A DNA stretch of 64,000 nt from the NCBI RefSeq assembly GCF_019704555.1, contig NZ_AP024745.1:11645501-11709500 (forward strand), written 5' to 3'. The notes beneath the pieces were generated by a model. That model saw nothing but the letters and a program-made list of their open reading frames with translations, made no database searches and was not told where the DNA came from. This document shows, one piece after another, positions 2,934 to 52,987 of the stretch. The position numbers were made by a program, and so were the translations under genes. This stretch comes from Actinoplanes sp. L3-i22. Lineage in GTDB: Bacteria > Actinomycetota > Actinomycetes > Mycobacteriales > Micromonosporaceae. Each line of letters begins with the position of its first letter. Position 1 is the stretch's first letter.

Positions 2934-3662
2934 TCACGGCACCACCTCGTCGGGCGCACCGCCACGCGCCGCCGGAACCGGGGCCGCGGCGTCGGGCAGC
3001 TCGACGATACGACCCGGCTCCCAGGGTGCCGCCCAGCCCGCCATGTCCAGCAGAACCGAGATCACCCCCGCCGTGAAACCCCAGACGAGCAGTCCGCGGA
3101 CCTGGAAGGCCGGTCCGATCCAGCCGCTCGGGTGTCGCACCCGGATACGGTTCGCGGGGTCGGCAAGTTCACTGATCGGCAATCTGGCCACGTGGGCGAC
3201 CTCGGTCACCTGCCGCGGCCGGACCGGGTGCGGGCGCCGCCACCAGGCCAGCACCGGGGTGACCGAGAACCCGCTGACCGGGATCCACAGCTCGGGCAGC
3301 AGGGCCAGCGGCTCGGCGCTGGCCGGGTCCAGCCCGACCTCCTCGTCGGCCTCGCGCAGCGCGGTGGCGATCGCGTCGGCGTCCTCCGGGTCGGTGGCGC
3401 CGCCCGGGAACGCGGGCTGGCCGGCGTGGTTCCGCATGGTCGCGGCGCGTTGCAGGATCAGCAGGTCGGGGCCGCCCGGGGTGTCGGCGGCCGGCGGGCT
3501 CTCGCCGAGCAGCACGAGCACCGCGCTGGCCCGCCCGGCGGCGCCGGCCGGCTTGCGCAGCACGCTGAAATCCTCGGTGCGACAGGCGGCGACCCGGGTG
3601 AGCAGCGGCTCGAACCACGACGGCAGATCATCGGGCCGGTCCAGCAGCATTCCGCCGCTCAT
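2934..3662 (-). CDS. Nudix hydrolase, CoA-pyrophosphatase-like
   Basis: 242-aa protein with a Nudix box around residues 87-111 (GG...TALREADEEVGL) preceded by FPGG, as in the NUDT7/CoA diphosphatase-like group (Rv3672c is the syntenic homologue). Expected to cleave a nucleoside diphosphate derivative; substrate unproven. ATG start with a TCGGAT -10-like hexamer 7 nt upstream. A 58-bp gap separates it from the TlpA-like gene, so a separate promoter is possible. Confidence 0.88.
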   Translation of the reverse strand: MSGGMLLDRPDDLPSWFEPLLTRVAACRTEDFSVLRKPAGAAGRASAVLVLLGESPPAADTPGGPDLLILQRAATMRNHAGQPAFPGGATDPEDADAIATALREADEEVGLDPASAEPLALLPELWIPVSGFSVTPVLAWWRRPHPVRPRQVTEVAHVARLPISELADPANRIRVRHPSGWIGPAFQVRGLLVWGFTAGVISVLLDMAGWAAPWEPGRIVELPDAAAPVPAARGGAPDEVVP

Positions 3663-8921: not shown

Positions 8922-10925
8922 GTGATCCGACGACTCTTGGTCGCCGACCGTGGTGAGATCGCCCGCCGGGTGTTCGCCACCTGCCGTCTGGTCGGTATCG
9001 AGACGGTCGCCGTCTACTCGGACGTCGACACCGACGCCCCGCACGTCAACGAGGCCGACTACGCCGTCCATCTGGAGGGCAACACCCCGGCCACGACGTA
9101 CCTGGAGCAGCACGCGCTGATCGCCGCCGCCAAGCGGGCCGGCGCGAACGCGGTGCACCCGGGCAACGGGATGCTCGCCGAGGATCCGGAGTTCGCCGCC
9201 GCGGTCACCGACGCCGGGATGATCTGGGTCGGCCCGCCCGCCGCGACGCTGCGCACCCTGCACCGCAAGAGCGAGACGAAGAAGCTGGTCGCCGAGGCGA
9301 AGGTGCCGGTGCTGCCGACCTTCACCGACCCGGCGACGGTGCCCGGGTTCCCGGTCCTGATCAAGCCGGACGCCGGCATCGGGGGCGCCGGCATGCGCGT
9401 GGTCCGGGACGCGTCGACGCTGGCCGAGGCGGTCGCGTCGGCCCGGCGCGAGGTGGACGGCGACGTGTTCTGCGAGCCGTACGTCGCCAACGTCCGGCAC
9501 ATCGAGGTGCCGATCCTGGCCGACGCGATGGGCGCGGTGGTGCCGTTCGGCGAGCGGGAGTGCTCGGTGCAGCGGCGCTACCAGAAGATCGTCGAGGAGA
9601 CCCCGTCCCCGGCGGTCGACGCGGCGCTGCGCGAGGACCTGTGCCGGGCGGCGATCGTCGCGGTCCGGGCGCTCGGGTTCGTCGGCGCCGGCGCGGTTGA
9701 GTTCCTGCTCGACTCGGACGGCGACTTCTGGTTCCTGGAGCTCACCCCGACCCTGCAGACCGATCACGCGGTCACCGAGTGCACCTCCGGCTACGACCTG
9801 GTCCGGCTGCAGCTGCTGATCGCCGAGGGCGGCAGCCTGCCGATGCCCGGGCCGCCGCCGATCCGCGGGCACGCCATCGAGGTGCGGATCTGCGCCGAGG
9901 ACCCGGCCTACGCCTGGTTGCCGAGCGCCGGCACCCTGCACCGGTTCGCGGTGCCGGACGTGGCCGGCGCGTTCCGCCCGCTGCCGCAGCCCGGCCTGCG
10001 CCTGGACTCCGGCGTCGCGGACGGCTCGGTGACCGGGGTCCAGTACGACCCGATGCTGGCCAAGCTGATCGCCTGGGCGCCGTCCCGGCAGGAGGCGGCC
10101 CGGATGCTGGCGTCCGCGCTGGCCCGGGCCCAGCTGCACGGCGTGGTCACCAACCGGGACCTGCTGGTCCGCACGTTGCGGCACCACTCGTTCCGGGCCG
10201 GCGACATCGACACCGGCTTCCTGGACCGGCATCCCGAGGTGTTCGCCCCGCTGCTCTCCTCGGTGGACGCGGTCCGGCTCTCCTGCCTGGCGTCCGCGCT
10301 GGCCGGGGCCGCCGACCGGCGGGCCAGCGCGCCCGTGCTCGGCACCCTGCCGTCCGGCTGGCGCAACGTCCCGTCCGGCTCGCAGACCGCGGTCTACGAC
10401 GGCCCGACCGGCCCGGTCGAGGTCGGCTACCGGATGAACCGGCACGGCGAGCTGGCCGGCTGGTGGGTCCGCTCGGTCGACCCGGAGGAGCTGGATCTGG
10501 CCGGTCTCGGTCAGGCGCCGGTCGACGAGCACCCGCCGATCACCGTCGTCTCGGCGAGCCGCGACCGGGTGGTCCTGAACGTCCAGGGCATCCGCCTGGC
10601 GGTCCTGGTGCACCGCGTCGGGGACGTCTCCTACGTGGACAGCCCCGAAGGATCGGTCACGCTGCGTGAGATCTCACGCTTCCCGCTGCCGGCCCCGGAG
10701 GCCGCGGAGAGCTCGCTGATCGCTCCGCTGCCGGGGGCGGTCCGCCGGGTCCTGGTGGTGCCGGGGCAGCGGGTCCGGGCCGGGGAGCTGCTGCTCACGC
10801 TGGAGGCGATGAAGCTGGAGCACCCGGTGCACGCGCCGTCCGCGGGCGTGGTCTCCTCGCTGCCGGTTCATCCGGGAGCCGAGGTGGACACCGGCGAGCT
10901 GTTGGCGATTCTTGACCCTGAGTAA
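8922..10925 (+). CDS. Divergent biotin carboxylase-BCCP fusion (acyl-CoA carboxylase alpha-like)
   Basis: 667 aa: biotin-carboxylase N-domain (RGEIA at 10-14), ATP-grasp, BC C-domain, and a biotinyl domain with intact EAMKLE, biotin acceptor Lys631. Active-site erosion is clear by comparison with E. coli AccC: EMNTRIQVEH reads ELTPTLQTDH at 273-282, so Asn290 and Arg292 equivalents are Thr and Glu296 is Asp. The ATP-binding glycine loop reads AGIGGAGM (151-158) rather than GGGG(K/R)GM, and GYGFLSEN reads GNGMLAED. QRRYQKIVEE (218-227) and Glu273 are kept. GTG start with AAGG upstream; coupled with the preceding gene. Confidence 0.8.
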   Translation: MIRRLLVADRGEIARRVFATCRLVGIETVAVYSDVDTDAPHVNEADYAVHLEGNTPATTYLEQHALIAAAKRAGANAVHPGNGMLAEDPEFAAAVTDAGMIWVGPPAATLRTLHRKSETKKLVAEAKVPVLPTFTDPATVPGFPVLIKPDAGIGGAGMRVVRDASTLAEAVASARREVDGDVFCEPYVANVRHIEVPILADAMGAVVPFGERECSVQRRYQKIVEETPSPAVDAALREDLCRAAIVAVRALGFVGAGAVEFLLDSDGDFWFLELTPTLQTDHAVTECTSGYDLVRLQLLIAEGGSLPMPGPPPIRGHAIEVRICAEDPAYAWLPSAGTLHRFAVPDVAGAFRPLPQPGLRLDSGVADGSVTGVQYDPMLAKLIAWAPSRQEAARMLASALARAQLHGVVTNRDLLVRTLRHHSFRAGDIDTGFLDRHPEVFAPLLSSVDAVRLSCLASALAGAADRRASAPVLGTLPSGWRNVPSGSQTAVYDGPTGPVEVGYRMNRHGELAGWWVRSVDPEELDLAGLGQAPVDEHPPITVVSASRDRVVLNVQGIRLAVLVHRVGDVSYVDSPEGSVTLREISRFPLPAPEAAESSLIAPLPGAVRRVLVVPGQRVRAGELLLTLEAMKLEHPVHAPSAGVVSSLPVHPGAEVDTGELLAILDPE

Positions 10926-10940
10926 TATTTATTTCCTACG

Positions 10941-11045
10941 CTGCGGCCAATAACTGATCGTCGCTCCCGCGGGGACCCTCGCGACCCTCGCAGGGCGCTG
11001 GCGCGCCCAGAACGCGAGGGCCGCAAGGGCGATGTCCGAGGGTGG
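10941..11045 (+). repeat. Dispersed structured element, copy 1
   Basis: First of three same-orientation copies of a ~105-bp intergenic element; others at 26313 and 51802. It has the hairpin GGGCGC-TGGC-GCGCCC enclosed by CCCTCGC / GCGAGGG, and outer arms GTCGC / GCGAT. It lies 3' of the biotin carboxylase-like gene in a convergent gap with the kinase gene, where no ordinary terminator is seen. Short frames in it are not genes. The rest of the gap to 11183 holds nothing else I can support. Confidence 0.85.
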
Positions 11046-11183
11046 TCACTCAAAAAAGAATGGGCGGACCACCGCGAGGAAACGCCTCAGCCCGGATGCG
11101 GCCCAGCGGCCCGGAGGGGCAGCGGCCTGGCGCTGCTCCCACGGGGCTCGGCCCAGGCCGTACCAAAGCATGATCTTAAAAAG

Positions 11184-24883: not shown

Positions 24884-24960
24884 CGGGGTGTGGCGCAGTT
24901 TGGTAGCGCGCTACGTTCGGGACGTAGAGGCCGTGGGTTCAAATCCCGCCACCCCGACCA
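24884..24960 (+). tRNA. tRNA-Pro (anticodon CGG)
   Basis: 77 nt with CCA encoded. Acceptor CGGGGTG / CACCCCG, anticodon stem CTACG / CGTAG with loop TTCGGGA (anticodon CGG, codon CCG), and T-arm GTGGGTTCAAATCCCGC. Confidence 0.97.
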
Positions 24961-25647: not shown

Positions 25648-26178
25648 GTGACTGACTCCATCGACCTCGCCCGCCAGGTGCGTTCCGTGAGCCGCCTGAC
25701 CGGCGAATTCACGCTGCGTTCCGGCCGCATCGCCAACGAATACTTCGACAAGTACCAGTTCGAGGCCGACCCGGTGCTGCTCGACCGGCTCGCCGAGCGG
25801 CTCGCCGTGCTGATCCCGGACGGCACCGAGGTGCTCGCCGGCCTGGAGATGGGCGGCATCGCGGTGGTCACCGCGCTCGCCCGGCACGCCCAGCTGCCGA
25901 CCGCCTTCGTCCGCAAGGAGGCGAAGAAGTACGGCACCGCCCGGCTCGTCGAGGGCGCCGAGATCGCCGGCCGCCGCGTGCTGGTCGTCGAGGACGTGGT
26001 GACCTCCGGCGGCCAGGTCGTCATCTCCACCGGCGAGCTACGCAAACTCGGCGCGCACGTGGACCACGCGCTCTGCGTGATCGACCGGCAGGAGGGCGGC
26101 TCCCAGGCCCTGGCCGCCGACGGCATCACCCTCCGCGCCCTGCTCACCCGCGCCGACCTGGACGCCGCCGCGTCCTGA
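25648..26178 (+). CDS. pyrE: Orotate phosphoribosyltransferase
   Basis: 176 aa. Makes OMP from orotate and PRPP in pyrimidine synthesis. The PRPP loop VLVVEDVVTSGGQ lies at 111-123; FVRKEAKKYGTA (88-99) is the flexible catalytic loop with Lys. GTG 25648 matches the usual PyrE N-terminus. Stands alone, away from other pyr genes. A 41-bp tandem repeat overlaps its 3' end. Confidence 0.93.
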   Translation: MTDSIDLARQVRSVSRLTGEFTLRSGRIANEYFDKYQFEADPVLLDRLAERLAVLIPDGTEVLAGLEMGGIAVVTALARHAQLPTAFVRKEAKKYGTARLVEGAEIAGRRVLVVEDVVTSGGQVVISTGELRKLGAHVDHALCVIDRQEGGSQALAADGITLRALLTRADLDAAAS

Positions 26179-26292
26179 CCGCCCCTGGCTCGATATGGCG
26201 CGTCCCGGGCGCGTCCTGACCTGCTCTGGCTCAATGTGGCGCGTCCCGGGCGCATCATGACCTGCCCTGGCTCGATGTGGCGCGTCCCGGCG
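26171..26292. repeat. 41-bp tandem repeat, three units, overlapping the pyrE stop
   Basis: Units begin at 26171, 26212 and 26253 and share CTGGCTCGATGTGGCGCGTC with few changes; the third is slightly shorter. The first unit contains the last codons and stop of pyrE. Confidence 0.85.
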
Positions 26293-26312: not shown

Positions 26313-26443
26313 CAACTTCAAGACCTTTCTTGCCTCGGCTGCGGCCAATAACTGATCGTCGCTCCCGCGGGGACCCTTCCGGGCCTCGCAGGGCGCTGGC
26401 GCGCCCAGAACGCGAGCCCCTACAGGGCGACGTCCGAGGGTGG
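26313..26443 (+). repeat. Dispersed structured element, copy 2
   Basis: Nearly identical to copy 3 from CCTCGG onward and to copy 1 from 26339. Inner hairpin GGGCGC-TGGC-GCGCCC, flanking arms GGGCCTCGC / GCGAGCCCC and outer GTCGC / GCGAC. Similarity to copy 3 extends upstream through TTCAAGA-CTTT-TTGCCTCGG. Between convergent pyrE and asd. Bases 26450-26720 hold only weak CCCAACCCGCCGCG-like repeats; no gene is seen there. Confidence 0.85.
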
Positions 26444-26746
26444 GCACGGTCTAAAAGGTCCGCAAACCTGCAGCCCACTCCCACCCCGGCCGCCGCGCCC
26501 CACGGTCGCCGGCCGGCACTCACGGCTCGCTCTGACGCCGCACACGACCGCAAGCGCCGGCCAAGGACCGCAACCACCAAGCAAACTCAACCGCCGCGCA
26601 GACCCAGCCCGCCACAAGCCCAACCCGCCGCGTGAACCCAACCGCCACGCGACTCAACCGCGCGCAGACCCAACCCGCCGCGCGGACTCAGCCGGCAACG
26701 CGGCTCGCGGTCAGTGGACCCTGTTGAGCGGGGCTGGCGGCGCGTT

Positions 26747-46024: not shown

Positions 46025-46120
46025 TCCTGCCACCTCCTGAACGACCGCGTCATTCTCCGTCGAGGGTGTGACAAGAACAAACGACATGCCCCGGGAGTGC
46101 ATGCCAAGCCGGAGACATAA

Positions 46121-46210
46121 AGGACCCCTCGTGCACCCGCCAGAGCCCGCTTATCCTTGCTGCCTTCCGGCCCTGGGGAGGTTCACAGGATGACGCCGCA
46201 CGAGGGGCTG
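46121..46210 (-). ncRNA. ffs: Signal recognition particle RNA (small bacterial type)
   Basis: On the minus strand the arms CCCCTCGTGC / GCACGAGGGG close the molecule, and the conserved apical domain reads CCAGGGCCGGAAGGCAGCAAGG in two parts around the GGAA tetraloop. Position upstream of dnaX and beside a tRNA-Ser is typical. Possible -10 TAGGCT upstream. Ends are approximate. Confidence 0.93.
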
Positions 46211-46260
46211 ATCGACAGCCTACCTGCCCGGCGAAACCCGGTCGGGCCGACCCCCGTGCG

Positions 46261-46295: not shown

Positions 46296-46383
46296 GGAGG
46301 ATTCGCCTAGTGGCCTAGGGCGCACGCTTGGAAAGCGTGTTGGGTTAACACCCTCACGAGTTCGAATCTCGTATCCTCCGCCA
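46296..46383 (+). tRNA. tRNA-Ser (anticodon GGA)
   Basis: 88 nt with CCA encoded. Acceptor GGAGGAT / ATCCTCC, anticodon stem CACGC / GCGTG with loop TTGGAAA (GGA), a long variable arm and T-arm ACGAGTTCGAATCTCGT. Confidence 0.97.
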
Positions 46384-48414: not shown

Positions 48415-48504
48415 TGGCGGTGGCGGCGGGATTTGAACCCGCGGAGGGCGTAAACCCTCACACGCTTTCGAGGCGTGCTCCTTAGGCCACTCGGACACGC
48501 CACC
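48415..48504 (-). tRNA. tRNA-Ser (anticodon CGA)
   Basis: 90 nt with CCA encoded. Acceptor GGTGGCG / CGCCACC, anticodon stem CACGC / GCGTG with loop CTCGAAA (CGA, codon UCG), long variable arm and T-arm GCGGGTTCAAATCCCGC. Confidence 0.97.
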
Positions 48505-51801: not shown

Positions 51802-51930
51802 CAAGTTCAAGATCTTTTTTGCCTCGGTCCGCCGGGGTACAGATCGTCGCTCCCGCGGGGACCCTTCCGGGCCTCGCAGGGCGCGGGGCGCCCAGAACGC
51901 GAGCCCCTACAGGGCGACGTCCGAGGGTGG
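51802..51930 (+). repeat. Dispersed structured element, copy 3
   Basis: Matches copy 2 from TTCAAGATC through GAGGGTGG with few changes. Inner hairpin is GGGCGC-GGG-GCGCCC, loop one base shorter than in copies 1 and 2 with the stem kept. Flanked by a perfect 10-bp direct repeat TCAAAGGCAA (51789-51798, 51950-51959). Between the M23 gene and tyrA. Confidence 0.85.
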
Positions 51931-51963
51931 TTGCGGTCAGAGCACAAGATCAAAGGCAAAACC

Positions 51964-52003
51964 CGGGGCCCGTGCTGACTGCGCGGGCCCCGGCGTCTAT
52001 AAC
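51964..52003 (+). promoter_or_regulatory. tyrA promoter within an inverted repeat, leaderless start
   Basis: CTGACT (51975-51980), 17-bp spacer, TATAAC (51998-52003), 6 nt before the GTG. The inverted repeat CGGGGCCCG / CGGGCCCCG (51964-51972, 51984-51992) brackets the -35, so it could be an operator or a terminator for the upstream gene. Confidence 0.65.
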
Positions 52004-52009
52004 CGATAC

Positions 52010-52987
52010 GTGCGGATTGCAGTCATCGGACTGGGACTGATCGGCGGGTCGCTGCTGCGGGCCCTGGCCGCGGCGGGACATGAGGTATCCGGTTTCGACG
52101 CCGACGCGGCGACCCGGGAGCTGGCCCGGGCGGCGGGGCACCGGGTGCCGGACTCCGCGCCCGAGGCGGTCGACGGGACCGAGGTGGTGGCTCTCGCCGT
52201 ACCCCTGCCGCATCTGCCGCAAGCCATCGCCGACCTGGCGGATTACCGCGGCCTGGTGACCGATGTGACCTCGGTGAAGGGCCCGGTACGGGCCCTCGCC
52301 GAGGAACGCGGGTTGCGCCGTTTCGTCGGCGGGCACCCGATGGCCGGCACCGCCGCGTCCGGCTTCGCCGCCTCCGACCCGGAGCTGTTCCAGGGCTGCA
52401 TGTGGGTGCTCTGCGTGGAGCCGCACGGCACCGACCTGGACGACTGGCTGACGCTGGCCCGGCTCTACACCGCGCTGGGCGCCCGGGTGCTGCCGATCAC
52501 CGCGGCCGAGCACGACAACGCGGTCGCCGCGATCAGCCACGTCCCGCACCTGCTCGCCGCCGCCCTGACCGAGTCGATCAACGAGCGCCCGCTGGCCGCG
52601 GCGCTGGCCGCCGGCTCGTTCCGGGACGGCACCCGGGTCGCGGCGACCCGGGCCGAGCTGACCGCGGCGATGTGCGGCGGCAACGCGAACGAGGTCATCC
52701 GCGAGCTGAACCACGTGATCGACGATCTCGAGCAGTTGCGGGACCAACTGGAGCTCGACGATCCGGTGAGCGCGCTGGTGCCGCATCTGAAAGCCACCGA
52801 GGAGCTCCGGCGGGCCTGGCCGCCCGCGCCGGGGGCCACGGAACGCCTGGCCTGGCCGCCGACCGCGACCTTCCTGGCCGCGCCGGCGCACACGCTGCTG
52901 GAGCTGGGCCGGGCCGGCGGCTGGGTGACCGCGGTCGGCGACGGCGAACTCGTCGTGGTGCGACCGAAAGAAGCGGCCGGAAACTGA
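52010..52987 (+). CDS. tyrA: Prephenate dehydrogenase
   Basis: 325 aa. NAD-binding GLGLIGGS (7-14), TDVTSVKGPV, GGHPMAGT (active-site His) and HDNAVAAISHVPHLLA. Converts prephenate to 4-hydroxyphenylpyruvate for tyrosine synthesis. No ACT domain is evident; the ~50-residue tail is Ala/Trp/Pro-rich. GTG start is leaderless. Confidence 0.93.
   Translation: MRIAVIGLGLIGGSLLRALAAAGHEVSGFDADAATRELARAAGHRVPDSAPEAVDGTEVVALAVPLPHLPQAIADLADYRGLVTDVTSVKGPVRALAEERGLRRFVGGHPMAGTAASGFAASDPELFQGCMWVLCVEPHGTDLDDWLTLARLYTALGARVLPITAAEHDNAVAAISHVPHLLAAALTESINERPLAAALAAGSFRDGTRVAATRAELTAAMCGGNANEVIRELNHVIDDLEQLRDQLELDDPVSALVPHLKATEELRRAWPPAPGATERLAWPPTATFLAAPAHTLLELGRAGGWVTAVGDGELVVVRPKEAAGN

Follow-up and report, generated by a model that had tools for sequence, protein, structure and literature searches.

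What kind of element recurs three times, in one orientation and nearly unchanged, between the genes of a single 64,000-nucleotide stretch of the Actinoplanes sp. L3-i22 genome (hereafter, the window), and why does it sit where it does? We find that the three segments are copies of a dispersed repeat of ~140 bases that occurs ~200 times in the genome of this soil bacterium, mostly directly 3′ of genes. Below we describe its spread, structure, location and inheritance.

Three copies of one repeat in the window

According to gene calls and Pfam domains, copy 1 (10928–11067, plus strand) starts directly after the stop codon (10923–10925) of a biotin-carboxylase gene and is followed by a convergent gene, and copy 2 with its AT-rich leader (26313–26465, plus strand) lies 142 nt 3′ of the stop codon of a phosphoribosyltransferase-domain gene, with the next predicted gene again convergent. 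Copy 3 with its AT-rich leader (51802–51952, plus strand) lies 22 nt 3′ of the stop codon of a gene assigned by Pfam to the M23 peptidases (gene end, 51786), and the next gene runs in the same direction. All three match our covariance model of the repeat, R1, on the plus strand, with 126.5 bits for copy 1, 138.0 bits for copy 2 (26326–26465) and 137.6 bits for copy 3 (51814–51952); the only other R1 matches in the window are two weak ones of 14.2 and 12.9 bits. Copies 1 and 2 are 88% identical over 122 nt, and a conserved 25-mer has three matches at up to three mismatches, compared to 0.00 expected from 100 shuffles.

Matches to the 25-mer and core, together with the alignment, delimit an invariant core, GATCGTCGCTCCCGCGGGGACC, composed of CGTC, a short TCCC/GGGA hairpin and CC (plus strand; 10956–10977, 26354–26375 and 51842–51863). 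The core is followed by a hairpin arm, P2a/P2/P3, which we annotate on the minus strand: it forms a stable minus-strand fold in copy 1 (10976–11029), a conserved fold is predicted on that strand in copy 2 (26374–26427), and sequence and alignment show the loop variant GGG in copy 3 (51862–51914). The near identity and common orientation of the three copies had been noted in a preliminary description made from the letters of the window. Its structural details are likewise seen in the sequences: the GGGCGC/GCGCCC hairpin is kept while the loop changes from TGGC to GGG, the next stem has C-G in copy 1 and G-C in copies 2 and 3, and the outer stem has a G-U pair in copy 1. Its further claim that the sites lack an ordinary terminator holds for a simple scan, which found none at any of the three, but is less secure for copy 3, where a strong GC-rich hairpin without a T run follows (51963–51993, plus strand; fold of 51926–52010, −38.9 kcal/mol, z = −2.98) and is possibly an ordinary terminator.

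Other features of the window include three 41-bp tandem repeats between the gene end and copy 2 (26169–26291), an array of 17-bp tandem repeats (1560–1761), and a small SRP RNA gene and three tRNA genes (46117–46212, minus strand; 24884–24960; 46296–46383; 48415–48504, minus strand).

A large, nearly genus-specific repeat family

The preliminary description had staked its reading beforehand on the existence of further copies, and these were found. Allowing up to three mismatches, the 22-base core has 98 forward and 101 reverse matches, 199 in total, in the genome, a single contig of 12,014,766 bases, and the reversed control pattern has none. Counts of genomic context in this genome refer to 138 of the 199 matches (hereafter, own copies). 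Copies too near the end of a locus were left out of the analysis. Among the first 100 matches listed, exact core copies number 13–23 per Mb up to 4 Mb and 1–7 per Mb at 4–8 Mb; among the exact matches listed, 37 plus-strand and 35 minus-strand copies in the first 4 Mb show no strand bias.

Across the genus, 56 of 67 genomes contain R1 matches at E ≤ 0.001; up to 48 candidates were scored per genome, so that the six genomes reaching this figure contain at least 48. Core matches range from 0 to 67 per genome in 59 relatives of the same genus, compared to 199 in Actinoplanes sp. L3-i22. In a family-level sample of 250 genomes, 55 had matches, of which 52 belonged to the same genus and the remaining three, with one or two weak matches each, to two other genera. 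Among the matches listed in a scan of public genomes, the named taxa were Actinoplanes, Paractinoplanes and Amorphoplanes, apart from five pattern matches in Streptomyces (2), Rhodococcus and two MAGs (L119, L125, L137, L156, L157), which we left out as likely chance after inspecting three of the five. The repeat had no match in plasmid and phage collections. Searched against Rfam at gathering score, the window gave no match at any of the three copies, and a search at a relaxed threshold around copy 3 gave nothing near the gathering score. A diverged subfamily, with different 3′ arms and a core mostly ending in GCCGAGACC, occurs in A. auranticolor and genome G049 (L085–L088, L164, L169, L192, L208).

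These elements form a large family of REP/ERIC-like repeats that lie at gene ends and are almost confined to the genus. The copy number, the genus-wide spread and the REP-like location bear out the earlier suggestion of a lineage-specific REP-like element. A literature search, largely outside subscription papers, found no published description of this repeat family, and relevant passages of two papers on Actinoplanes sp. SE50/110 (PMC3364876, PMC7682106) mention no such repeat.

Anatomy and covariation

Read along the preceding gene, the unit consists of an AT-rich leader, a variable 5′ part, the core, the arm P2a/P2/P3 and a conserved 3′ part with GTGG. The leader varies in length, contains words like GATCAAG/TTCAAGATC, and has an A+T content of 57% in own copies, compared to 30% for the window. 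We rejected the idea that stop codons are generally followed by a GATCAAG leader, since only one of 51 stops in the window has a leader-like word within 60 nt. About a quarter of own copies run on into a further repeated 3′ module, two motifs of which follow 26 and 35 of the 138 copies at no more than 200 nt and have 3 and 14 occurrences in the window plus 160 kb of background. Partial 5′ halves precede a full copy in P. ovalisporus (L127), G049 (L087) and P. lichenicola (L076); behind dnaJ in L127 (~3270–3500), two tandem 5′-half copies and then a full copy are spaced by nearly the same ~16-base word.

R1 was built from 26 diverse copies, comprising the three window copies and 23 chosen at less than ~80% similarity from 165 main-type copies, in which the nearly invariant core reads CGTCGCTCCCGC(G/C)G(G/A)GACC. 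Paired cells make up 92.3% of the structure on these copies, compared to 81.8% in shuffles. Covariation, another result on which the preliminary description had staked its reading, is present: 13 of 31 pairs, six of them in P2, change on both sides, and the 79 double-change cells compare with 28.9 in shuffles, a number reached in none of 500. Sliding the structure by one to three columns left at most 32 double-change cells, a control that favors the structure as drawn because the sequences used for counting pairs had also served to draw it. The compensatory changes in the hairpin arm support the proposed selection on structure.

Which strand folds

The plus strand, which had been assumed to carry the structure, is probably the wrong one. 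Among the P2 cells of the 138 own copies, 117 lack a standard pair; 88 of these are A-C or C-A mismatches at six column pairs, 29 are other mismatches, and plus-strand G-U cells are absent (0). Because A-C and C-A mismatches correspond to G-U wobbles on the opposite strand, this pattern suggests pairing on the minus strand, and it persists over 172 distinct copies that include the own sample (98 A-C/C-A versus 6 G-U cells). P3 was left out of the wobble counts because its one-base loop variants are misplaced by the fixed-length alignment.

Predicted stabilities agree. All 91 distinct own arms and 102 of 105 distinct arms of relatives (193/196) fold more stably as the minus strand, and for 96 of the 108 sequences sampled (45 distinct own sequences and up to 15 from each of five other species) the 80-nt region has its lower fold z-score on that strand; as all copies are homologous, this strand preference in stability amounts to about one observation. 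The A. cyaneus figures for arm stability, for z-scores and for the earlier sharing and identity sets may include one A. palleronii copy (L243, from G014). Copy 1 (10962–11038) folds with −53.3 kcal/mol (z = −4.57) on the minus strand and −42.6 kcal/mol (z = −1.83) on the plus strand. The corresponding values for copy 2 (26360–26440) are −48.3 kcal/mol (z = −1.65), with the arm as the dominant fold, and −40.9 kcal/mol (z = −0.54), with an energy minimum in which the arm is incomplete.

In the outer helix P1 the wobbles point the other way, with 31 plus-strand G-U cells versus 5 C-A cells in own copies. Given this conflict with P2, and with one double-change cell in the 26 copies, we downgraded P1 as an established pairing. 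The sequence and folding data therefore suggest, though not uniformly as to strand, that the hairpin arm is selected on the strand antisense to the neighboring gene. A fold with covariation would also suit a family of minus-strand small RNAs, a reading we consider very unlikely: ~200 similar copies would be unusual for such a family, and a simple scan, of a kind that does not cover actinobacterial promoters, found no promoter-like sites.

Position relative to genes

Using codon-usage gene calls made in this analysis, we found that none of the 138 own copies overlaps a predicted gene and that 112 are preceded by a gene in the same direction. By arrangement, 77 copies lie between convergent genes, 35 between tandem genes running along the element, 16 between tandem genes running against it and 9 between divergent genes; for the remaining copy, no gene was called behind the element. 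Convergent gaps are in excess (77 of the 137 copies with both neighbors called versus 20 of 116 baseline gaps, P = 1 × 10−10) and divergent gaps in deficit (9 own copies versus 29 of 116, P = 7 × 10−5), the baseline being gaps of at least 30 nt in the window and eight other stretches, with 52 closer gene pairs left out. A first sample of 118 copies from relatives gave a similar picture: 97 behind a same-direction gene, 67 convergent and none overlapping.

Over half of the own copies behind a same-direction gene (62/112) lie within 35 nt of its stop codon. TAA stops are enriched at these genes (20/62 versus 13 of 171 baseline genes, P = 8 × 10−6), as if the leader had supplied the stop codon. 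Farther out, 22 of the 45 copies at 36–260 nt have a recognizable terminator hairpin between stop and element, compared to 21 of 88 control genes; the five of 112 copies more than 260 nt behind the stop were left out of this test. The repeat thus has a preferred orientation, in which its leader adjoins the 3′ end of a gene, behind either the stop codon or the terminator.

The downstream position of 112 copies is what one would expect of a 3′ mRNA stabilizer or terminator working within the mRNA of the upstream gene, as had been proposed. We regard this role as improbable and do not favor it, because the fold is weaker on the plus strand than on the minus strand and because some copies lie beyond that gene's terminator. 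The convergent excess and the better minus-strand fold are instead compatible with a mainly transcriptional role on the other strand, in which the repeat would be a terminator or road-block that prevents antisense or convergent transcripts from running into the end of the gene. We view this as possible but doubtful as the main role: both neighbors of 35 of the 137 copies run in the element's own direction, and no U run was seen behind the arm. A further point in its favor, that 52 of the 62 copies near stops have no recognizable plus-strand terminator in the following 150 nt, means little, since only 21 of 88 control genes have one by the same test. Among the effects on transcription that we infer for the repeat, the one we think most likely at the site itself, and put forward tentatively, is that of a boundary that would stop or protect transcripts arriving from the convergent side before they enter the gene.

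Shared sites, gain and loss, and proposed homogenization

Whether such positions are inherited can be judged from sites in common between species, which we defined by a flanking gene product of at least 65% identity on the same side and strand. By this definition, 24 of the 46 A. cyaneus copies examined have one or more flanking products in common with the 138 own copies (L243 is not among the 24). Sharing in opposite orientation was seen for one of the 46, which is also shared in the same orientation; the A. palleronii copy L243 has a site in common with an own copy in opposite orientation only. Sites are rarely shared with more distant species (P. lichenicola, 2/16; P. ovalisporus, 1/9; P. 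bogorensis, 0/16). For 23 pairs of own and A. cyaneus copies, the distances from the upstream gene are correlated (rho = 0.78, P = 1 × 10−5), including far cases at 758/737 and 714/554 nt, a correlation that may reflect conserved landmarks rather than conserved insertions.

Two gene neighborhoods, each examined in loci from 30 of the 67 genomes, show the sites in different states. Behind rplT, where the loci inspected show a terminator hairpin, the element lies directly behind this hairpin in 8 of 30 loci and the rest are empty sites. Behind dnaJ, 12 of 30 loci have a model match at E ≤ 0.01, two of them weak; the element lies ~9–13, 60, 75 or 197 nt 3′ of the stop depending on the species, others lack it, and several have copies that look decayed or partial by eye. 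Because the dnaJ distances differ between species, some shared neighborhoods represent independent insertions. Gain and loss therefore both occur, and at dnaJ there was more than one insertion.

Orthologous copies are not especially similar. Between own and A. cyaneus copies, ortholog identity is 0.746, the 51st percentile of own copies, and own paralogs average 0.852. In a mixed set of many species, orthologs (0.766) compare with random cross-species pairs (0.733) and paralogs (0.82–0.84). Copy-poorer genomes give a mixed result: the rplT orthologs of P. maris, P. ovalisporus, G011 and G033 are 0.88–0.94 identical, above most paralogs, whereas other pairs in this clade rank low. Judged from these comparisons, the pattern fits inherited sites combined with genome-wide homogenization that is perhaps faster where copies are more numerous.

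The same observations could be read as the work of an actively moving non-autonomous transposon, similar to MITEs or REPs, that inserts repeatedly behind the same landmarks (stop codons, terminators) and whose uniformity reflects recent spread. The variable and missing dnaJ copies, the 8 filled rplT sites among 30, the range of 0 to 199 core matches per genome within one genus and the opposite-orientation site of A. palleronii all point in this direction, and for dnaJ repeated insertion behind the same landmarks is likely. For the family as a whole we judge it rather unlikely, given the correlated distances at 23 own/A. cyaneus sites, far ones included, the near absence of sites in opposite orientation between these two species, and the lack of a detectable target duplication.

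Search for a mover

The longest word shared by the two flanks of a copy averages 6.18, compared to 6.14 (sd 0.08) under shuffled pairing, across 138 copies whose ends are fuzzy. No terminal inverted repeats were apparent by eye in the alignments, in which the ends of the element are likewise fuzzy. The RAYT/Y1 transposase (PF01797) has no match in Actinoplanes sp. L3-i22 (G000); it is matched in 15 of 60 genomes of the genus, the copy-rich G010 and G014 among them, and is without a match in copy-rich G003, G022, G032, G048 and G051. Reverse transcriptase (PF00078) matches occur in 45 of 67 genomes, including five of the six that reach at least 48 copies, and G000 has a single match above the family cut-off (C1:6756341–6756856, 42.7 bits). 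A SINE-like element with a minus-strand tail was considered, since the tandem 5′-half copies in L127, L087 and L076 suggested 5′ truncation. A reverse-transcribed element would call for a reverse transcriptase in every copy-rich genome, and the idea was dropped when PF00078 gave no match in copy-rich G010 and G022.

The position behind stop codons and the predicted bottom-strand fold recall attC sites of integrons, the bottom-strand-folded recombination sites behind genes. This identification is almost certainly wrong: none of the 67 genomes has an integron integrase over the curated TIGR02249 cut-off, the copies are dispersed rather than arrayed, and the alignment has no conserved outer boxes, which in attC sites are AAC/GTT. 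Tyrosine-recombinase matches below the cut-off occur in all 67 genomes and in controls. On the basis of these searches, RAYT, reverse transcriptase and integron integrase have no consistent support as putative movers.

Comparison with known repeat systems

The closest parallels we found are the CGTC-tagged REPs described in the accessible text of Di Nocera et al. 2013 (PMC3733652). These are 20–40 bp long, with an unpaired CGTC beside a hairpin whose 8–9 bp stem starts with A-T pairs, a CC-type tail and no dedicated transposase known; most occupy gaps between genes that converge or run in one direction, and often the 3′ end of an ORF is no more than 20 bp away; the five phyla named there do not include Actinobacteria. 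The Actinoplanes repeat is similar in that CGTC precedes the core hairpin, with CGTCGCTCCCGC (nearly) invariant in the 26 aligned copies, and in its intergenic location at ORF 3′ ends with a convergent excess. It differs in its core stem (TCCC/GGGA, 4 bp, without an A-T start), in its unit length of ~140 nt and in its tail, where CC is followed by a variable base rather than completing CCA. Because of the 4-bp stem and the much longer unit, we do not class it as a CGTC REP. As far as the same text describes them, GTAG REPs with RAYT share the gene-end location and can supply stop codons, but the Actinoplanes core has no GTAG tag and its genome no PF01797 match.

In kind, the repeat is comparable to ERIC/IRU and to CIR of Caulobacter, a comparison that rests on their descriptions in the available text of PMC2229807 rather than on sequence. 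ERIC/IRU (ERIC, 127 bp) are small intergenic non-autonomous repeats with a hairpin, terminal inverted repeats and target duplications, neither of the latter two being detected in the Actinoplanes repeat; for CIR, the listing gives no terminal inverted repeats and an unknown target duplication. The filled and empty sites between relatives, as at rplT, resemble those of MITEs and ERIC. The STAR elements of staphylococci, as presented in the accessible part of PMC3532100, are likewise species-dependent intergenic repeats, but STAR loci differ by species and keep distinct sequences, whereas many Actinoplanes loci are common to two species and their orthologs have no extra similarity.

A model for the family and its implications

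We propose, with a probability of about 0.65, that these elements are genus-wide structured intergenic repeats of Actinoplanes sensu lato that work in the manner of REP/ERIC repeats, with inherited sites, rare spread, homogenization within genomes and an antisense-strand hairpin. Under this proposal, shared sites would mostly be inherited, and copies would spread rarely, through a factor that the searches above did not reveal, and be tolerated or kept at gene ends. Homogenization within each genome would most likely occur by ectopic gene conversion between copies, and the hairpin may be selected on the strand antisense to the neighboring gene either as single-stranded DNA during copying or as RNA read from the opposite side. 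A more speculative extension, which we consider quite unlikely as a whole, is that the ~200 copies keep their inherited positions while copying on the folded antisense strand, from a template of single-stranded DNA or RNA, overwrites the copies mutually, so that the family would evolve as one unit without free transposition.

The repeat adds a large REP/ERIC-like family, of which we found no earlier description, to the Actinobacteria. It bears on two questions, namely how dispersed bacterial repeats spread without a known transposase and how they keep their similarity within a genome, and the combination of shared sites, empty sites and ~200 copies makes both spread and within-genome similarity testable. 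Hairpins at so many gene ends are also relevant to the annotation and genetics of Actinoplanes.
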